Below, one piece after another: positions 28,580 through 37,166 of a stretch of 64,000 nucleotides of DNA. Position 1 is the stretch's first letter; the number at the start of each line of letters is the position of its first letter. Under the pieces are notes generated by a model that had not been told where the DNA came from, made no database searches, and worked only from the letters and a program-made list of their open reading frames with translations. A program made the translations under genes and the position numbers. Origin of the DNA: Acidimicrobiales bacterium (lineage in GTDB: Bacteria; Actinomycetota; Acidimicrobiia; Acidimicrobiales; Ilumatobacteraceae); contig JAURCL010000002.1 of assembly GCA_030828465.1 (NCBI GenBank), positions 1 to 64,000 on the forward strand, given 5' to 3'.

Positions 28580-31500
28580 TCATCGGAAGTCACGGCTCCT
28601 CGACCCGGCCATCACCGGCAACGGGTCGATGCGCTCGGCGACGATGTTGACCACGCCCTCGGCTCGCTCGAGGCGGCCCCGCACCACCAGAGCCGCCGCT
28701 GAGCGGGCCGCCAACCGGTAGCGCTTCCAGCAACCAACCGAGACCACGACGTTGACGAGACCCGTCTCGTCCTCGAGGTTGATGAACATCGTTCCCTTGG
28801 CCGTCATCGGCCGTTGACGGTGGGTGACGACACCGGCGACGACCACGGTGCGGTCGGATTCGTGGGTGCGCAACCCCTCAGCGGTGACCACCCCGAGTCG
28901 TTCGAGCTCGGTCCGCACGAACACCGTCGGATGGCCATCCGGCGACACCCCGGTCGCCCACAGATCAGCGATGGACTCCTCGACCGGGGTCATACCCGGC
29001 AGACGCGGCGATCGGTCGCCGGTCACGATGCCGGGCAATGTGCCCGGTCGGCTCCGCGAGGCCGCCCCCGCGGTCCAAATCGCCTCGCGTCGCTCCAAGC
29101 CGAGCGATTCCCCGAACACCCCGGCGGTCGCCATGGCCTCGAGATGGGCGAGGTCGAGGTCGGGGACCCGTCGCACCAGGTCCTCCATCGACACGAATCC
29201 GCCGCCGCGCTCCCGCTCGACCACGACCGACTCGGCGAGCGACGAACCGAGGCCTCGCACCGAGGACAGCCCGAGGCGCACCACGGATCCCCCCTCCTCG
29301 AGGGTCGCCCCGGCGCGCGAGGCGTGCAGGTCGGGGGTGCGCACCTCGACACCGTGGCGGCGAGCGTCGCGCACCAAGGTGTGCGGCGACCAGAACCCCA
29401 TTGGCTGGGCGTTGATGAGGGCGGCGCAGAACGCCGCCGGCTCGTGATGCTTGATCCACGAGGAGGCGTAGACGAGATAGGCGAACGACACCGAGTGCGA
29501 CTCGGGGAAGCCGTAGTTCGCGAAGGCGCGCATCTTCATGTAGATCTCGTCGGCCACCTCACCGGTGATCCCCCGCTCGGCCATCCCGCGGTAGAGACGC
29601 TCACGGAGTCGCTCCATACGAGCCGTCGACCGTTTCGATCCCATGGCCTGGCGCAACTCGTCGGACTCGGCGGCGGTGAACCCGGCGACGTCGATTGCCA
29701 TCTGCATGAGTTGCTCTTGGAAGAGCGGCACCCCGAGGGTCTTCGCGAGGGAGTTCTCAAGCAGGGGGTGCAGGTAGGTGACCGGCTCGAGTCCGTTGCG
29801 CCGCCGAATGTACGGGTGCACCGAGCCACCCTGGATCGGTCCCGGACGGATCAAGGCCACCTCGACCACCAGGTCGTAGAACCGTCGCGGCTTCAACCTC
29901 GGCAGGGTCGCCATCTGAGCCCGCGACTCCACCTGGAACACCCCGACGGTGTCGGCCCGGCAGAGCATCGCGTAGACCTCGTCCTCCTGAGGGATGGTGG
30001 CAAGGTCGACCTCGTAGCCGCGGTGCTCGGCGATGAGGTCGACCGCGAGATGCAGGGCCGAGAGCATGCCAAGGCCGAGTAGGTCGAACTTGACGAGGCC
30101 GGCGGCCGCGCAATCGTCCTTGTCCCACTGGAGCACCGACCTCCCCTCGGCTCGGGCCCACTCGACCGGGCACACCTCAATGACCGGCCGGTCACACATG
30201 ACCATGCCCCCCGAATGCACACCAAGATGTCGCGGCGCTCCGCGAAGACGCGCAGCGAGGTCGAGCACCTCGGCCGGGATGGAGGTGCCGGCCTCGGCGG
30301 TCGCGGTGAGTCCGCCGCCGCGCTCGACCTCACGCGACCAGGCGTCTTGTTGACCGGGTTCGGCGCCGAGGGCTTTCGCCGCGTCACGCACTGCCGAACG
30401 GGTCCGATAGGTGATGACGTTGGCCACCTGGGCGGCGTGATGCCGTCCGTGGCGCTCGTAGACGTACTGGATGACCTCCTCACGGCGACCGGACTCGATG
30501 TCGACGTCGATGTCGGGAGGCCCATCGCGGTGCGGGGAGAGGAACCGCTCGAAGAGCAACCCGAGAGAGACCGCATCGGCCGCGGTGATGCCGAGGGCGT
30601 AGCAGACCGCCGAGTTGGCGGCACTGCCGCGGCCCTGGCAGTAGATGTCGTTGCGGCGACAGAAGTCGACGATGTCCCAGACCACGAGGAAGTAACCGGC
30701 GAAGCCGAGCTGCTCGATGAGCGCGAGTTCGCGATCGATCGTCGACCAGGCCCGCGCGCGCAGAGAGAGATCCTCCCCGCCGGACGGCCGGGTGCCGTAG
30801 CGGCGATGCCCACCCTCGGCGGTGAGTCGACGCAGGAATCCCATCTCGTCGAGTCCGTCCGGACAGGGGAAGGGCGGCAGTGACGGAGCGACGAGGGACA
30901 GATCGAAGGCGGCCGCTCGGGCGATCTCGACCGTGCGCTCGACCACACCCGGATATCTCGCGAATCTCCGAGCCTGCTCAGCTCCCGACCGCAGATGAGC
31001 GCCGATACCGCCGGGAAGCCAAGGGTCGGCCGAGTCGAGACTGCGGCGCGCCCCGACGGCGGCGGCGACCGCGGCGAGATCGGCGTCGGCGGGAGTGGCG
31101 TGATCGACGTCGTTCGCCGCGACGCACTCCACACCGACCCGATGGGCGATCTCCACGAGGGCGTCGTTGCGGTGGTGATCGAGCGGATCGCCGTGGTCCC
31201 AGATCTCGACGAGGACACGATCGCGTCCGAAAGCGTCGACGAGTCGCTCCAGTTCAACGCGCGCCGCCGCCGGGCCGTCGGCGATCAGGGCGCCGGGCAC
31301 CAGACCGCTGCGCCCACCGGTCAGTACCCAACACGACCCGGCGACGGTCTCGGCGACCTCCTCCAGTTCGAAGACCGGCGCGCCCTTCGAACCAGCGAGT
31401 TGACCGAGGGAGAGGGCGCGGGAGAGTCGCGCGTAACCGGGGGTGCCATCGGCGAGGAGGACGAGACGCCCGCCGGGGCGCAGCCCTCGAGAGGCCCGGG

Positions 31501-31897
31501 CCACCTGAGTTGGCGCGATCTCGGCGCCGAACATGGTGGCGATCCCCATCTCGCGCGCTGCCTCGGCGAAGCGAACCACCCCGTAGAGGCCGTCGCGGTC
31601 GGTGATGGCGAGGGCCTCGAGTCCGAGCCGGGCTGCTTCGACCACCAGCGCTTCGGGATGTGAGGCGCCCTCCAAGAACGAGAAGTTCGATCGGCAATGC
31701 AGTTCGGCGTAGGGCACGCCCTCGGGTACCGGGCGATGGTCGGGGGCACTGAAGGGCTGCCGTCGCCGACTCCATGCCGGAGCGTCACCGCCGGCATTCC
31801 ATGACGGGGATCCGGCGGCTCGACCATCGGGGCCGACGCGACCGGAGAGACGGGCCTCGAGCTCGCTCCATGTCCACTCCGGATTGGTGAATCCCAC
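28580..31897 (-). CDS. dnaE2: error-prone DNA polymerase DnaE2
   Basis: A C-family polymerase of about 1105 residues used for translesion synthesis and induced mutagenesis. An N-terminal PHP domain (YAELHCRSNFSFLEGASHPE), the polymerase core with catalytic acids in PDIDVDIESGRREEVI, helix-hairpin-helix and C-terminal OB-fold regions are recognisable. Its length and short N-terminus match DnaE2 rather than DnaE1. The ATG at 31915 lies inside a LexA box, so a GTG at 31897 or 31900 (VGFTNPEWTWSELE) is preferred. It is last in the imuA-imuB-NUDIX-dnaE2 array and has its own LexA box, so SOS induction is expected. Confidence 0.94.
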   Translation of the reverse strand: MGFTNPEWTWSELEARLSGRVGPDGRAAGSPSWNAGGDAPAWSRRRQPFSAPDHRPVPEGVPYAELHCRSNFSFLEGASHPEALVVEAARLGLEALAITDRDGLYGVVRFAEAAREMGIATMFGAEIAPTQVARASRGLRPGGRLVLLADGTPGYARLSRALSLGQLAGSKGAPVFELEEVAETVAGSCWVLTGGRSGLVPGALIADGPAAARVELERLVDAFGRDRVLVEIWDHGDPLDHHRNDALVEIAHRVGVECVAANDVDHATPADADLAAVAAAVGARRSLDSADPWLPGGIGAHLRSGAEQARRFARYPGVVERTVEIARAAAFDLSLVAPSLPPFPCPDGLDEMGFLRRLTAEGGHRRYGTRPSGGEDLSLRARAWSTIDRELALIEQLGFAGYFLVVWDIVDFCRRNDIYCQGRGSAANSAVCYALGITAADAVSLGLLFERFLSPHRDGPPDIDVDIESGRREEVIQYVYERHGRHHAAQVANVITYRTRSAVRDAAKALGAEPGQQDAWSREVERGGGLTATAEAGTSIPAEVLDLAARLRGAPRHLGVHSGGMVMCDRPVIEVCPVEWARAEGRSVLQWDKDDCAAAGLVKFDLLGLGMLSALHLAVDLIAEHRGYEVDLATIPQEDEVYAMLCRADTVGVFQVESRAQMATLPRLKPRRFYDLVVEVALIRPGPIQGGSVHPYIRRRNGLEPVTYLHPLLENSLAKTLGVPLFQEQLMQMAIDVAGFTAAESDELRQAMGSKRSTARMERLRERLYRGMAERGITGEVADEIYMKMRAFANYGFPESHSVSFAYLVYASSWIKHHEPAAFCAALINAQPMGFWSPHTLVRDARRHGVEVRTPDLHASRAGATLEEGGSVVRLGLSSVRGLGSSLAESVVVERERGGGFVSMEDLVRRVPDLDLAHLEAMATAGVFGESLGLERREAIWTAGAASRSRPGTLPGIVTGDRSPRLPGMTPVEESIADLWATGVSPDGHPTVFVRTELERLGVVTAEGLRTHESDRTVVVAGVVTHRQRPMTAKGTMFINLEDETGLVNVVVSVGCWKRYRLAARSAAALVVRGRLERAEGVVNIVAERIDPLPVMAGSRSRDFR

Positions 31898-31901
31898 CAC
31901 A

Positions 31902-31929
31902 CCAGTATCGAACATATGTTCGATACTGG
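31902..31929. promoter_or_regulatory. LexA/SOS box upstream of dnaE2 (28-bp perfect palindrome)
   Basis: The core TCGAACATATGTTCGA (31908-31923) is an exact actinobacterial SOS-box match (TCGAAC-N4-GTTCGA). The symmetry extends to 14 bases per side, with arms CCAGTATCGAACAT and its complement. It lies between the NUDIX stop and the dnaE2 start. Confidence 0.9.
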
Positions 31930-31938
31930 CAACCGGCT

Positions 31939-32595
31939 CTATCCAGGCGGTCGGAGGTGTTGGAGTAGAGAGGTCAGCCGGGGGTCATCGGCCCGTTCGA
32001 TGGCCGCGGGCCAGTCGAACCACGCGACGTCGGGGCTCTCCCCCGCGGGTGGTGCCGGATCGAGGTCGGGGGCAGCAAGCAGATAGCGAAGATCAAGATG
32101 GATATGCCCGCGACCTCCGGGATGGACATCGACGTGCACCAGTCGCGGAACGACATCGTCGACGCTGGCCGCCCCACCGGTCCCCGTGACAAACGAGACC
32201 GGCAGGCCGGTCCCCGTGACAAACGAGACCGGCAGGCCGGTCTCTTCTGCCGCTTCGCGGAGTGCGGCTGCCCAAGGTGTCTCGCCGGGGTCGACATGCC
32301 CTCCCGGCTGGATCCACATATCGAGACGACGATGTCGGAGCAGCACGACCCCTCGCTCACCGATCACGATGGCCGACCCCGTGATATGCACCGCGTCGGC
32401 GTCAATATCGAACGGGTCGAGTCCGGCGGCGACGAGTCGGTCGACCTCGGTGGCGAACCGCTCGATCGAATGTCGTTCGTCATCGTCGATCGGCTCGCGA
32501 GCCAGCACCTCGTCGCGCACCTCGCGGGCCAGGTGGTGACGGAGCAGATCAGACCCGGGAGCGGTCATGCCGGCGACCGTACCGGGATCACTCAT
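31939..32595 (-). CDS. NUDIX hydrolase embedded in the SOS mutasome operon
   Basis: A 218-residue NUDIX protein. The box is complete: Gly99-HVDPG-Glu105, then Arg113-Glu114 and Glu117-Glu118-x-Gly120. Members hydrolyse nucleoside diphosphates linked to other groups, including oxidised dNTPs; the substrate here is unknown. A 10-residue tandem duplication (GLPVSFVTGT) sits directly after the box. The ATG at 32595 overlaps the imuB stop by 8 bases; an ATG at 32568 is an alternative. The location between imuB and dnaE2, on the same strand and without a gap after imuB, implies SOS-linked expression. Confidence 0.9.
   Translation of the reverse strand: MSDPGTVAGMTAPGSDLLRHHLAREVRDEVLAREPIDDDERHSIERFATEVDRLVAAGLDPFDIDADAVHITGSAIVIGERGVVLLRHRRLDMWIQPGGHVDPGETPWAAALREAAEETGLPVSFVTGTGLPVSFVTGTGGAASVDDVVPRLVHVDVHPGGRGHIHLDLRYLLAAPDLDPAPPAGESPDVAWFDWPAAIERADDPRLTSLLQHLRPPG
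32177..32236. repeat. perfect 30-bp tandem duplication inside the NUDIX gene
   Basis: Two identical 30-base units (32177-32206 and 32207-32236), followed by CCGGT of a third, encode a duplicated 10-residue segment in frame. Identity at all positions, including third codon positions, indicates a recent slippage event or a sequencing/assembly artefact. Confidence 0.95.
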
Positions 32596-34159
32596 AGGTG
32601 GCCTCGATCGACCACTGTCGCCGCTGCACCGCCACCAGATGCGCGCTGTCATCGTCAAGCACCACCTGCAGCCGAGCCGAGCGCTTCACCGCTGGCGACC
32701 ACCAACGCTCATGCAACGGCCACGGCCCCGCCCACGCAACGATCCGACGCGATCCTGTCCGGTCGACCAACTCGTGGGGAGCCGAACTCATTTCACCCCG
32801 GCCGGTCACGAGCACCGGCTCACCGGAGATATCGAGCAGGTGGACCTCGGGTGGGTCGCGGTGGACGACCGTCGGCGCCGGAGCCGGCAGGGCTCCAGGC
32901 CAGGGAGCGGCATCGCGCGACACTCGGGTGACGTCGAGGAGGTCGACCGTGTCGGCCGGCACCCACCGGTGACGGTCGGCCGGCGAGCGACCACCGGACC
33001 ACACCGGCACCTCGACCGCCCCGCCCTCGGCGAGGGAGGTGAGCCGGGCGACAGCGCGAAGGGCAGCCTCGTCGCGTTCGGAACGCCCTCCCCAGAGCCC
33101 CTCTTGAGAACCCTCGTCGGGCCGCACCTGCTCGGCAGCGAGTCGAACCAGCACCACCCCAGAGGTGATCGCGCCCGGTCGACGAGTCCAGGCGTCGACC
33201 TGCCATCGAACGCGATCGATCACCGCGGCCGCCGACAAGCCCTCCTCTCGATACCAGCAGTGCTCGCTGCGTTCGGAATGCTCGGTCTCGATCGTCACGC
33301 GAACCGCAACACAGACCCGACCCGATGCAGCGACCTCGGAGATCAACCGCTCGGCCCGCTCGCGGACGGCGAAGACCACCGCCGACGCATCGTGGATGGG
33401 TTCGTCAACAGCCAACTCCACCGCGCTGGTCGACTCGTGGACAGCGGTGTTGACCGGGCGCTCATCGATGCCGTTGGCCAACCGGTGAGCGTGCAGACCG
33501 ACCGGACCGAACCTTGAGACGACATCAGAGGGGGCGAGTGCCGCCAGCTCGCCGAGGCGGCGGACGCCGAGACGATCGAGGAGCGAGACGAAGTCGACGG
33601 GAACCTCTCCGATCTCAGACAGCCAGGACACCGGCAAACCCGCGACGAGATCCGGTGAGCGATCGGAGGGAACCACCTCCGGATGACCGGCGGTGATCGA
33701 CACGAGGGTCGCGAGCGCGGAGAGCGCTCGGCCGTCGGCAACCCCGACACCAGGCGGTGACCATCCAGCGGGTCGCACCTCCGCCAGATCGACAGCTAGG
33801 CGATCGAGCAAGGCTCGCTCACCCCCGAAGAGACGCGACGGCCCGCGGGCGGGGAGACGGATGTGTCCGGGTTCGACCAGTTCGACACCGGGGGCGTACC
33901 CGGAGAGGATCTCGAGCACCGACTCGAAGGCGGCCAACTCGAGCGCGGGATCGCGATCGACGATGAGCAGGTCGGGGCAGGCGCGCAGGGCGGAGCGCCG
34001 CCGTTCGCCGACACCCACCCCGAACTCGGCTGCGCCCGGAGAGACAGCGATCAGGCGGTTGGCGACGATCACCGCGGCAGGACGCCCCGGAGGGTGCCCA
34101 AGCGCCGACACCGGCCAGTCGGACCACCGGATGGTGATGGTGCGGACGCCGACCGTCAC
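32588..34159 (-). CDS. imuB: ImuB, non-catalytic Y-family polymerase-like mutasome protein
   Basis: A 523-residue Y-family-like protein that links DnaE2 to the beta clamp. The N-terminal palm region reads TITIRWSDWPVSAL and AAVIVANRLIAVSPGAAEFGV and lacks the catalytic acidic residues of DinB, as ImuB should. The little-finger and C-terminal regions are present; ImuB C-termini bind ImuA and DnaE2. The GTG at 34159 follows the imuA stop by 4 bases. An in-frame start back to 34819 would overlap all of imuA and is rejected. Its stop overlaps the NUDIX start. Confidence 0.92.
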   Translation of the reverse strand: MTVGVRTITIRWSDWPVSALGHPPGRPAAVIVANRLIAVSPGAAEFGVGVGERRRSALRACPDLLIVDRDPALELAAFESVLEILSGYAPGVELVEPGHIRLPARGPSRLFGGERALLDRLAVDLAEVRPAGWSPPGVGVADGRALSALATLVSITAGHPEVVPSDRSPDLVAGLPVSWLSEIGEVPVDFVSLLDRLGVRRLGELAALAPSDVVSRFGPVGLHAHRLANGIDERPVNTAVHESTSAVELAVDEPIHDASAVVFAVRERAERLISEVAASGRVCVAVRVTIETEHSERSEHCWYREEGLSAAAVIDRVRWQVDAWTRRPGAITSGVVLVRLAAEQVRPDEGSQEGLWGGRSERDEAALRAVARLTSLAEGGAVEVPVWSGGRSPADRHRWVPADTVDLLDVTRVSRDAAPWPGALPAPAPTVVHRDPPEVHLLDISGEPVLVTGRGEMSSAPHELVDRTGSRRIVAWAGPWPLHERWWSPAVKRSARLQVVLDDDSAHLVAVQRRQWSIEATYE

Positions 34160-34163
34160 GTGA

Positions 34164-34892
34164 TCAGACCGCCGCGCGGATCGGACTGGAGGAGACCACC
34201 TCAGGAGCGTGCAGACGACCATCAGATCCGGGGAGCGAGACCGATGCGACACCCCCGCGGTGCACGCGCCGCCCCGAGGCCTGCACCTCGATGTTCCGAT
34301 CGGCGAGGCGGCCCGTGCCGGTTCCGATGCCCTGCCACGACGGGGTGGCTGACGAGAGCTCGACGTCGACCTCGAGACCGCGCGGGTCACCGATGACGAG
34401 CAGGCAGCCCGCCCGGGATCGGAGTCGACGGCGGATCGCTGTGGCCAACGGAGTAGGCACGCGGCCGGGTGGCGAGGTGAGGAGCAACTCGAACCCGTCG
34501 AGAGCGGCGAGGCAGAGATCGGCCCAAGCCCGCACCCCATCGCTGCCGGGACGCACCCGCACGAGTCGTTCAAGTGGAAGACCGGCATCGGCGACGGCCT
34601 CGACACCGAGGTCGTCGACTCCAAGCACGGCGATCCACGAGCCGAGGACCACCGCACTCGCCGAGGCGGCGATCGCCAGGGAGCGAGCTGCCGGCCCCCG
34701 ACAGGCCACCGCCTGCCCCCTGACGAGACCCTCGGAGCCCAGCAGGGCGCCGAGGACGGGATCGAGCGGGAGGGTGCGCTCGGTGGCGAGACGGGCAGCA
34801 CCGAGCCGCTCGATGCCATGAGGTGAAGCGGCGTCTTGAGGCGGGACGGCGAGAGCGGAGGGCGCCGAATGCGACTCGTTCGGGATACTCAT
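34164..34892 (-). CDS. imuA: ImuA-like RecA-fold mutasome protein
   Basis: A 242-residue protein at the head of the mutasome array. The arrangement (LDPVLGALLGSEGLVRGQAVACRGPAARSLAIAASASAV) follows the RecA/ImuA' N-terminal pattern, but the Walker A loop is not recognisable (CRGPAARS in place of GxxxxGK), so ATP use is doubtful. In actinobacteria ImuA' recruits ImuB. The ATG at 34892 has a LexA box and a TACGAT hexamer directly upstream. Confidence 0.85.
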   Translation of the reverse strand: MSIPNESHSAPSALAVPPQDAASPHGIERLGAARLATERTLPLDPVLGALLGSEGLVRGQAVACRGPAARSLAIAASASAVVLGSWIAVLGVDDLGVEAVADAGLPLERLVRVRPGSDGVRAWADLCLAALDGFELLLTSPPGRVPTPLATAIRRRLRSRAGCLLVIGDPRGLEVDVELSSATPSWQGIGTGTGRLADRNIEVQASGRRVHRGGVASVSLPGSDGRLHAPEVVSSSPIRAAV

Positions 34893-34904: not shown

Positions 34905-34920
34905 TCGAACAGGTGTTCGG
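34905..34920. promoter_or_regulatory. LexA/SOS box upstream of imuA
   Basis: TCGAACAGGTGTTCGG matches TCGAAC-N4-GTTCGA except for the last base. It lies 13-28 bases upstream of the imuA ATG. The divergent gene at 34988 begins 68 bases away, so LexA could also affect it. Confidence 0.85.
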
Positions 34921-36314: not shown

Positions 36315-37166
36315 TCAGGCGCTGCGCGTGCTGGCAGCGACCTCGTCGAGCAGATCGAGGAGGTCGTCGAGCCCGGCTGAGTGGTGATCCGCTCCGACTG
36401 AGGCGGCAACAGCGCGAGAGGCGATGCCGCGCCCCCCGACAATGACCGGCAGGTCGGGCTCAGCATCGCGGATTGCGAGCAAGGTGTCACGACACGACTC
36501 AAGGGAATCGGCATGGGTCACCGAGACCACAACCGCCACCGATGCCGTCTCGCGAGCCGCCGACACGAACGACGATGCCGGAGAATCGGCGCCGATGTCG
36601 GATACCTCCCAACCCGCGGCCCGCACCAGGTCGGAGAGCATCGACACGACGAGGCCGTGGCGCTCTCCGGGCGGCGCTCCAATCACCACGGATCCGCGCG
36701 AGCGGCCGCGGCGAACGAATTGGGGACCAAGGCGACCGATGATCCGTTGCACGATGCCGGTCGCGCGGTGTTCAACCGAGATGTCGAGCTCGCCGGCCGC
36801 CCAGCGTTCGCCGATGTTGACGAGCGCCGGCGAGATGACCTCGGTGTAGACGCGAGCCGGAGTGGAACCCGCAGCCAGGGCCGATTCGACAACGGTCCAC
36901 GCCCCTCCGGCGTCGCCGGCGACCAGACGGGACTGCATCCTCTGACCCCAGTCCGCCCGCCCGCGAGGGCCATGGGAAGCGCGGTCGGCAGGCTGGTCGG
37001 ACGGCTCCGCTCGAAACCGGTCGAGTTCCGTGCGCGACACCCGCCAGGTTCCGGAGCGCTTCACCGCGTCGAGTTGACCAAGACGCACATACCGATACGC
37101 AGTCATGTAGTGCACGCCGAGTTCGGCTGCCGCTTCGTGCAGCGTGAGACCCTCGTCGCAGACCAT
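36315..37166 (-). CDS. CarH-like B12-binding transcriptional regulator with excisionase-type HTH
   Basis: This 283-residue regulator has an N-terminal winged HTH (residues 6-52) of the excisionase/HTH_17 type (LTLHEAAAELGVHYMTAYRY). A helical bundle (about 70-150) contains Trp122 followed nine residues later by Glu132-His133, the Wx9EH motif that holds adenosylcobalamin over the bundle in CarH. A B12-binding Rossmann domain (about 158-283) has candidate axial His170 in GERHG, SVTHAD and IVGGRGI. CarH proteins release DNA when light cleaves adenosylcobalamin. Here the DNA-binding domain is not a standard MerR head. TAATTT lies 7 bases before the ATG, overlapping a palindrome. Confidence 0.85.
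   Translation of the reverse strand: MVCDEGLTLHEAAAELGVHYMTAYRYVRLGQLDAVKRSGTWRVSRTELDRFRAEPSDQPADRASHGPRGRADWGQRMQSRLVAGDAGGAWTVVESALAAGSTPARVYTEVISPALVNIGERWAAGELDISVEHRATGIVQRIIGRLGPQFVRRGRSRGSVVIGAPPGERHGLVVSMLSDLVRAAGWEVSDIGADSPASSFVSAARETASVAVVVSVTHADSLESCRDTLLAIRDAEPDLPVIVGGRGIASRAVAASVGADHHSAGLDDLLDLLDEVAASTRSA

Follow-up and report, generated by a model that had tools for sequence, protein, structure and literature searches.

The mycobacterial ImuA'-ImuB-DnaE2 mutasome, as set out in PMC10421592 and PMC12926913 (the latter a survey of bacterial DNA polymerases with their gene neighbourhoods), comprises ImuA', an ImuB with a QxxLWG-like motif at residue 352 (the clamp motif 352-QLPLWG-357 of PMC10421592), DnaE2 and SOS-type LexA boxes. 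The same components are encoded within positions 1-64,000 (hereafter the window) of contig JAURCL010000002.1, which belongs to a draft genome of 1.83 Mb, 92.6% complete, from an actinobacterium of the family Ilumatobacteraceae. In contrast to the mycobacterial mutasome, the window holds a gene for a NUDIX hydrolase between imuB and dnaE2, and this gene is the subject of the present analysis. The word nudix is absent from the main text of both papers, and no description of a NUDIX gene in an imuB or dnaE2 neighbourhood was found in the open-access literature (main texts). A likeness is offered by the Prochlorococcus mutT-phrB operon, up-regulation of which gives ultraviolet (UV) hyper-resistance according to PMC2955971; there, a NUDIX gene is transcribed together with a gene for the repair of UV damage, and the host is a surface-water bacterium with a small genome. 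However, the Prochlorococcus partner is a photolyase, which is error-free, rather than an error-prone polymerase complex, and the likeness is one of gene arrangement only.

The elements of the locus are as follows.

34906..34919, no strand assigned: LexA box CGAACAGGTGTTCG, an exact match 13 nt upstream of the imuA' start; exact before imuA in 59/67 relatives.
34164..34892, minus strand: imuA' (ImuA'/Rv3395c family; NCBIfam NF058630, 85.8 bits, cut-off 65), the probable first gene of an SOS transcript.
32588..34159, minus strand: imuB, with a GTG start at 34159, encoding an inactive Y-family polymerase homologue (Pfam IMS, 35.9 bits, cut-off 23.2).
31939..32595, minus strand: NUDIX hydrolase gene, 218 amino acids, with an N-terminal two-helix extension and an intact Nudix box GHVDPGETPWAAALREAAEETGL (PF00293, 55.4 bits, cut-off 21.1).
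31902..31929, no strand assigned: 28-bp perfect palindrome between NUDIX and dnaE2, holding the LexA box 31909-31922 (CGAACATATGTTCG); an exact box precedes dnaE2 in 50/56 relatives.
28580..31915, minus strand: dnaE2, error-prone polymerase (NF004225, 1407 bits, cut-off 939), for which GTG 31900 or 31897 (MGFTNPEW) is the likelier start.

The minus strand carries imuA', imuB, NUDIX and dnaE2 one after another in the same orientation. A 4-bp gap (34160-34163) separates imuA' from imuB, and imuB overlaps NUDIX by 8 bp (32588-32595); on these points coordinates and family models agree with the preliminary description of this DNA. Given the overlap, a promoter belonging to the NUDIX gene itself could fit nowhere but inside imuB. 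ImuB carries QEGLWG at residue 352, the position of the mycobacterial clamp motif, and is predicted from its sequence to bind the clamp. Judged by its ImuA', its ImuB with a clamp-like motif, its DnaE2 and its LexA-type promoters, the cluster is an actinobacterial ImuA'-ImuB-DnaE2 mutasome.

Perfect CGAACN4GTTCG boxes occur exactly twice in the whole 64-kb window, before imuA' and at the dnaE2 start. Allowing one mismatch yields 5 matches against 4.83 expected, which is chance level; what supports the LexA boxes is their exact match, their location and their conservation among relatives. The LexA boxes mentioned in the preliminary description are borne out by these two, both of which are conserved in relatives; that the second sits between NUDIX and dnaE2 was missing from it. 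This placement would provide dnaE2 with an SOS promoter of its own and would leave imuA'-imuB-NUDIX as the natural first transcript, so that two SOS transcripts are likely at this locus. The GTG starts of dnaE2 are preferred because the listed ATG at 31915 falls within the LexA box. The boxes end just 8-13 nt before the likely dnaE2 and imuA' starts, a spacing that leaderless or very short-leader transcripts would fit. Because the NUDIX gene overlaps imuB and a LexA box lies upstream of imuA', damage-induced co-expression of NUDIX with the mutasome is likely in this lineage.

A survey of 395 genomes of the class Acidimicrobiia (matches at E up to 1e-10) matched the NUDIX protein in 130 genomes and ImuB in 315. 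The Ilumatobacteraceae sample (n=30) has ImuB in 30/30 genomes and NUDIX in 26/30, and the NUDIX gene adjoins imuB in all 26 genomes that bear it, the contig ending inside NUDIX in one of them (G008). Within the examined stretch dnaE2 follows in 22/26, and the G008 dnaE2 is found on the contig carrying the other half of its NUDIX gene. The 26/26 count rules out chance or a single-genome oddity. Among the best 80 named loci, in which close relatives are over-represented, ImuB and NUDIX share one locus in 63; six further loci, which reach a contig edge or lack imuB, have dnaE2 or a response-regulator gene (see below) beside NUDIX, and 11 are unlinked, including two from Ornithinimicrobium and others from Egibacteraceae, Euzebyaceae and Desertimonas flava.

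Outside Ilumatobacteraceae, none of the 10 inspected loci of NUDIX homologues is near imuAB or dnaE2, and NUDIX and ImuB occur together in none of the 35 non-family genomes with both positions listed (on different contigs in 34, 860 kb apart in one). Similarly, 39 imuB regions from 18 other families (19 regions of the class, from 11 families, and 20 of the phylum, from 7 families) show no Nudix box beside imuB by a strict pattern and no tblastn match of the window protein. Eighteen of these stretches also hold dnaE2, with varied genes between it and imuB, and some stop 1-4 kb past imuB. A general actinobacterial trait is ruled out for the 39 regions examined. The imuB-NUDIX-dnaE2 synteny is thus not confined to this genome, as the 26/26 family genomes attest, and is found in none of the 39 regions outside the family: the association of NUDIX with the mutasome genes is long-standing and specific to Ilumatobacteraceae.

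Some further observations were made in the other families. An unrelated Nudix box lies 6.6 kb from imuB in one locus (L198), and NUDIX homologues in two others (L104, L103) stand in varied contexts, within long frames that also appear, by eye, to hold HAD-like and inositol-phosphatase-like domains. In one family (f4, e.g. G047, G055 and G063) several genomes match the C-terminal part of ImuB only (~residues 350-523), which recalls the DnaE2-[ImuB-C] systems described in PMC12926913.

Two layouts are found within Ilumatobacteraceae. A gene for an OmpR-type response regulator, on the opposite strand and hence convergent, separates imuB from NUDIX in 12/26 genomes; its identity was checked for one (Pfam Trans_reg_C, 83.8 bits; Response_reg, 32.9 bits). 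The regulator is missing from the other 14/26, in which, as in the window, NUDIX is codirectional with imuB and close behind it. A NUDIX start codon lies -8 to +93 nt from the imuB stop in 34 of the 37 regulator-less same-strand loci, near-duplicates included. Relatives of the regulator in the window genome, an incomplete draft, are distant only (33-35% identity at best). An ImuB tree of 98 rows (12 near-duplicate loci dropped), built quickly and with long branches, places Ilumatobacteraceae on one side of a fully supported branch, with the exception of L155. Parsimony on this tree (77 rows, L155 set aside) requires 6 layout changes when genus g7, which has no NUDIX, is scored as regulator-bearing; scoring other families as regulator-free raises the number to 7. 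Each of the three basal branches of the family has the regulator next to imuB, which makes repeated loss the simplest account, and the layouts are best read as repeated regulator loss from a family ancestor in which the regulator lay between imuB and NUDIX; many insertions of one gene, always at one site and in one orientation, are less likely. L155 itself (L155:1-4843) has NUDIX in inverted orientation between imuB and dnaE2, facing away from dnaE2 across a shared LexA box; its ImuB groups with other families and its NUDIX protein among the linked ones. The NUDIX tree (92 rows, 20 near-duplicates dropped) lacks the resolution needed to say when the gene arrived.

LexA boxes were counted in relatives within 220 bp upstream, with the 12 near-duplicate loci and rows below a set length or score dropped. 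An exact box precedes imuA in 31/32 loci without and 28/35 with the regulator, and dnaE2 in 31/33 without and 19/23 with it. Before NUDIX, an exact box was found within these 220 bp in 0/40 loci with the regulator and in 1/35 regulator-less loci, the one being L155. Direct control of NUDIX by an exact LexA box is accordingly rejected (0/40). Inexact boxes do precede NUDIX in loci with the regulator, with one mismatch in 3 loci and two in 6 (9/40 at two or fewer, against ~12% in shuffled sequences), and some species may carry a degenerate box there. From the distribution of boxes, the NUDIX gene appears to be without SOS control by a box of its own, and such control would be reachable only via the imuA' transcript. 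As no exact box precedes NUDIX where the regulator intervenes, its SOS control would be secondary. The proposal that NUDIX belongs to an SOS mutasome operon therefore holds in part: co-expression is likely in the window, by virtue of the overlap and the box before imuA', but the apparent ancestral layout has a regulator in between and no box.

The reading we favour, with a probability of roughly 55%, is that NUDIX was captured secondarily, through loss of the regulator, as the third cistron of a transcript under LexA control. The family ancestor would have had imuA'-imuB, then the convergent response-regulator gene, then an independently transcribed NUDIX gene; the regulator gene would have been lost several times, each loss bringing NUDIX under the imuA' promoter. 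At the present locus LexA would then govern two promoters, one for the imuA'-imuB-NUDIX transcript and a separate one for dnaE2 downstream of it. Upon DNA damage, removal of LexA would lead to production of the NUDIX enzyme together with the mutasome, and the compound hydrolysed by the enzyme would be of the nucleoside-diphosphate type; the likeliest candidate is a nucleoside polyphosphate, or a damaged (deoxy)nucleoside triphosphate, that builds up under the same stress. It may in this way benefit mutagenic repair.

Several observations weigh against secondary capture into the SOS transcript. Four of the 30 Ilumatobacteraceae genomes, three from genus g7 plus G122, retain imuB without NUDIX, and Desertimonas flava (L179), a member of the family by its NCBI name, has NUDIX with no imuB within 8 kb. 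Without L141, L129 and L083, three doubtful rows, 4 layout changes remain; parsimony leaves the direction of change unfixed, on a quick tree with long branches; and the regulator-less layout shared by reduced genomes may reflect deletion bias rather than selection for SOS control. Finally, NUDIX may merely belong to a conserved region. Among the linked loci (56 hand-picked, counts over 55; 12 of the 24 full-length loci listed), a 150-amino-acid open reading frame (ORF) is kept in 46/55, a helix-turn-helix (HTH) and B12-binding gene in 31/55 and the regulator in 34/55. The conserved position of NUDIX supports a functional tie to the mutasome without proving it, because the block also keeps these three genes. 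The 150-amino-acid ORF (MGQLVGV...) lies near imuA, e.g. at L121:2609-3061, and has no Pfam match. The HTH gene is also present near the mutasome in the window:

36315..37166, minus strand: HTH and B12-binding protein (Pfam HTH_17, B12-binding_2, B12-binding).

This architecture resembles that of light-sensing CarH-type regulators.

The strongest alternative, to which we give a little under even odds, is that the NUDIX protein is a housekeeping enzyme in a conserved block, read through from imuB after regulator loss and without a role in mutagenic repair. In favour of such a neutral neighbour, conservation of other block genes, the 150-amino-acid ORF for one, comes close to that of NUDIX, no LexA box belongs to NUDIX itself, and its homologues outside the family stand in unrelated contexts (0/10 loci; 0/35 genomes with both genes together). 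In addition, the NUDIX frame runs on into a GNAT acetyltransferase domain in 5/26 family genomes (L079, L080, L081, L083 and L089; confirmed by Pfam for L079), which speaks for a small-molecule role, at least in the fused genomes. Mere neighbourhood is less easily reconciled with an imuB-NUDIX-dnaE2 position that outlasts layout changes, the inversion-like rearrangement of L155 and extensive genome reduction, or with the rarity of shared genes beyond the block, which among the plausible genes listed are common to few loci (up to 8/55).

The NUDIX gene is under purifying selection similar to that on imuA and imuB. Its ratio of nonsynonymous to synonymous substitution (dN/dS) is 0.118 and 0.117 (two parts) against G008 and 0.142 against L108, the values in this comparison being 0.073 and 0.153 for imuB and 0.159 and 0.231 for imuA. 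The protein belongs to the NUDIX superfamily by its PF00293 score and by the box GX5EX7REUXEEXGU, whose catalytic positions are invariant in 45 aligned homologues, as are H70, T72, S74, H88, the QPGGH stretch, the catalytic glutamates and H164-x-H166-x-D168. The predicted structure (predicted local distance difference test score, pLDDT, 88.2; predicted template modelling score, pTM, 0.83) shows the NUDIX fold with an N-terminal helix pair. A repeat within the gene corresponds to a loop modelled with low confidence (residues 131-143):

32177..32242, minus strand: in-frame tandem repeat of a 30-bp unit (2.2 copies), just downstream of the Nudix box, encoding a second GLPVSFVTGT.

L108 has one copy and the G008 assembly breaks inside the same repeat; the copy number may differ between strains.

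The closest solved relatives by sequence and fold are Clostridium perfringens 3fcm and 3f6a and Pyrobaculum 1jrk/1k2e (PDB), at 19-28% identity, whose PDB titles name no substrate. Fold matches comprise 3fcm (Z 18.3), the Thermus diadenosine hexaphosphate (Ap6A) hydrolase Ndx1 (15.4), mycobacterial MutT1 (14.5), the Aquifex and worm diadenosine tetraphosphate (Ap4A) hydrolases (14.0 and 13.6) and Rv2985, a diadenosine polyphosphatase by description (13.6). Ndx1 and MutT1 (8-oxo-deoxyguanosine triphosphate, 8-oxo-dGTP, or dinucleoside polyphosphates, ApnA) have the NUDIX core in common with the window protein; in contrast, its two-helix N-terminal extension is unaligned, identity is 23-25% and family models score far below cut-off, namely 22.5 bits against 97.9 for MutT (TIGR00586) and 24.4 against 475 for MutT1 (NF052459). 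Assignment of a substrate by fold failed, as NUDIX folds of many substrates score alike; a nucleoside polyphosphate is our guess. A MutT1 orthologue elsewhere in the genome was not found above a cut-off that none of 14 control genomes reaches either, and PADLOC returned a single weak match to the NUDIX protein (PDC-S07, 22 bits).

A tentative and rather improbable possibility is that the enzyme is an ApnA hydrolase that removes alarmone-like nucleotides rising under damage or heat stress, independently of DnaE2; Ndx1, the Ap4A hydrolases and Rv2985 are among the nearest folds with a known substrate, although sequence identity to those enzymes is 19-25% only. It is doubtful that the four genes form a cassette in which NUDIX is a dedicated ImuA'-ImuB-DnaE2 accessory, for local cleaning of the deoxynucleoside triphosphate (dNTP) pool or damage-signal trimming, repeatedly and independently locked into the SOS operon by regulator deletion in reduced-genome lineages. 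Least likely is the preliminary proposal, in which a MutT-like enzyme would remove 8-oxo-dGTP and other damaged dNTPs before DnaE2 can insert them and so keep down the cost of mutagenic repair. Such sanitising on behalf of DnaE2 may occur, in view of co-location, probable SOS co-expression, the presence of MutT1 bound to 8-oxo-dGTP among the nearest folds (Z ~14.5) and the precedent of Prochlorococcus mutT-phrB (PMC2955971), but the MutT and MutT1 scores speak against 8-oxo-dGTP as the substrate, the Ap6A hydrolase fold fits as well or better, an unassigned NUDIX protein fits best, and the ancestral layout has no SOS box.

The locus represents a known kind of gene cluster in a variant specific to this family, and a tie of nucleotide-pool chemistry to damage-induced mutagenesis is plausible. 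Ilumatobacteraceae, a family of aquatic actinobacteria, provide a natural comparison, with close relatives that have and that lack the regulator, e.g. Ilumatobacter nonamiensis (L139), in which the regulator is absent, and its sister rows L076 and L077. Cleaning of the nucleotide pool is an error-avoiding process, whereas the mutasome is error-making; if the two are tied to one damage switch, the arrangement would bear on how the cost of induced mutagenesis is limited.

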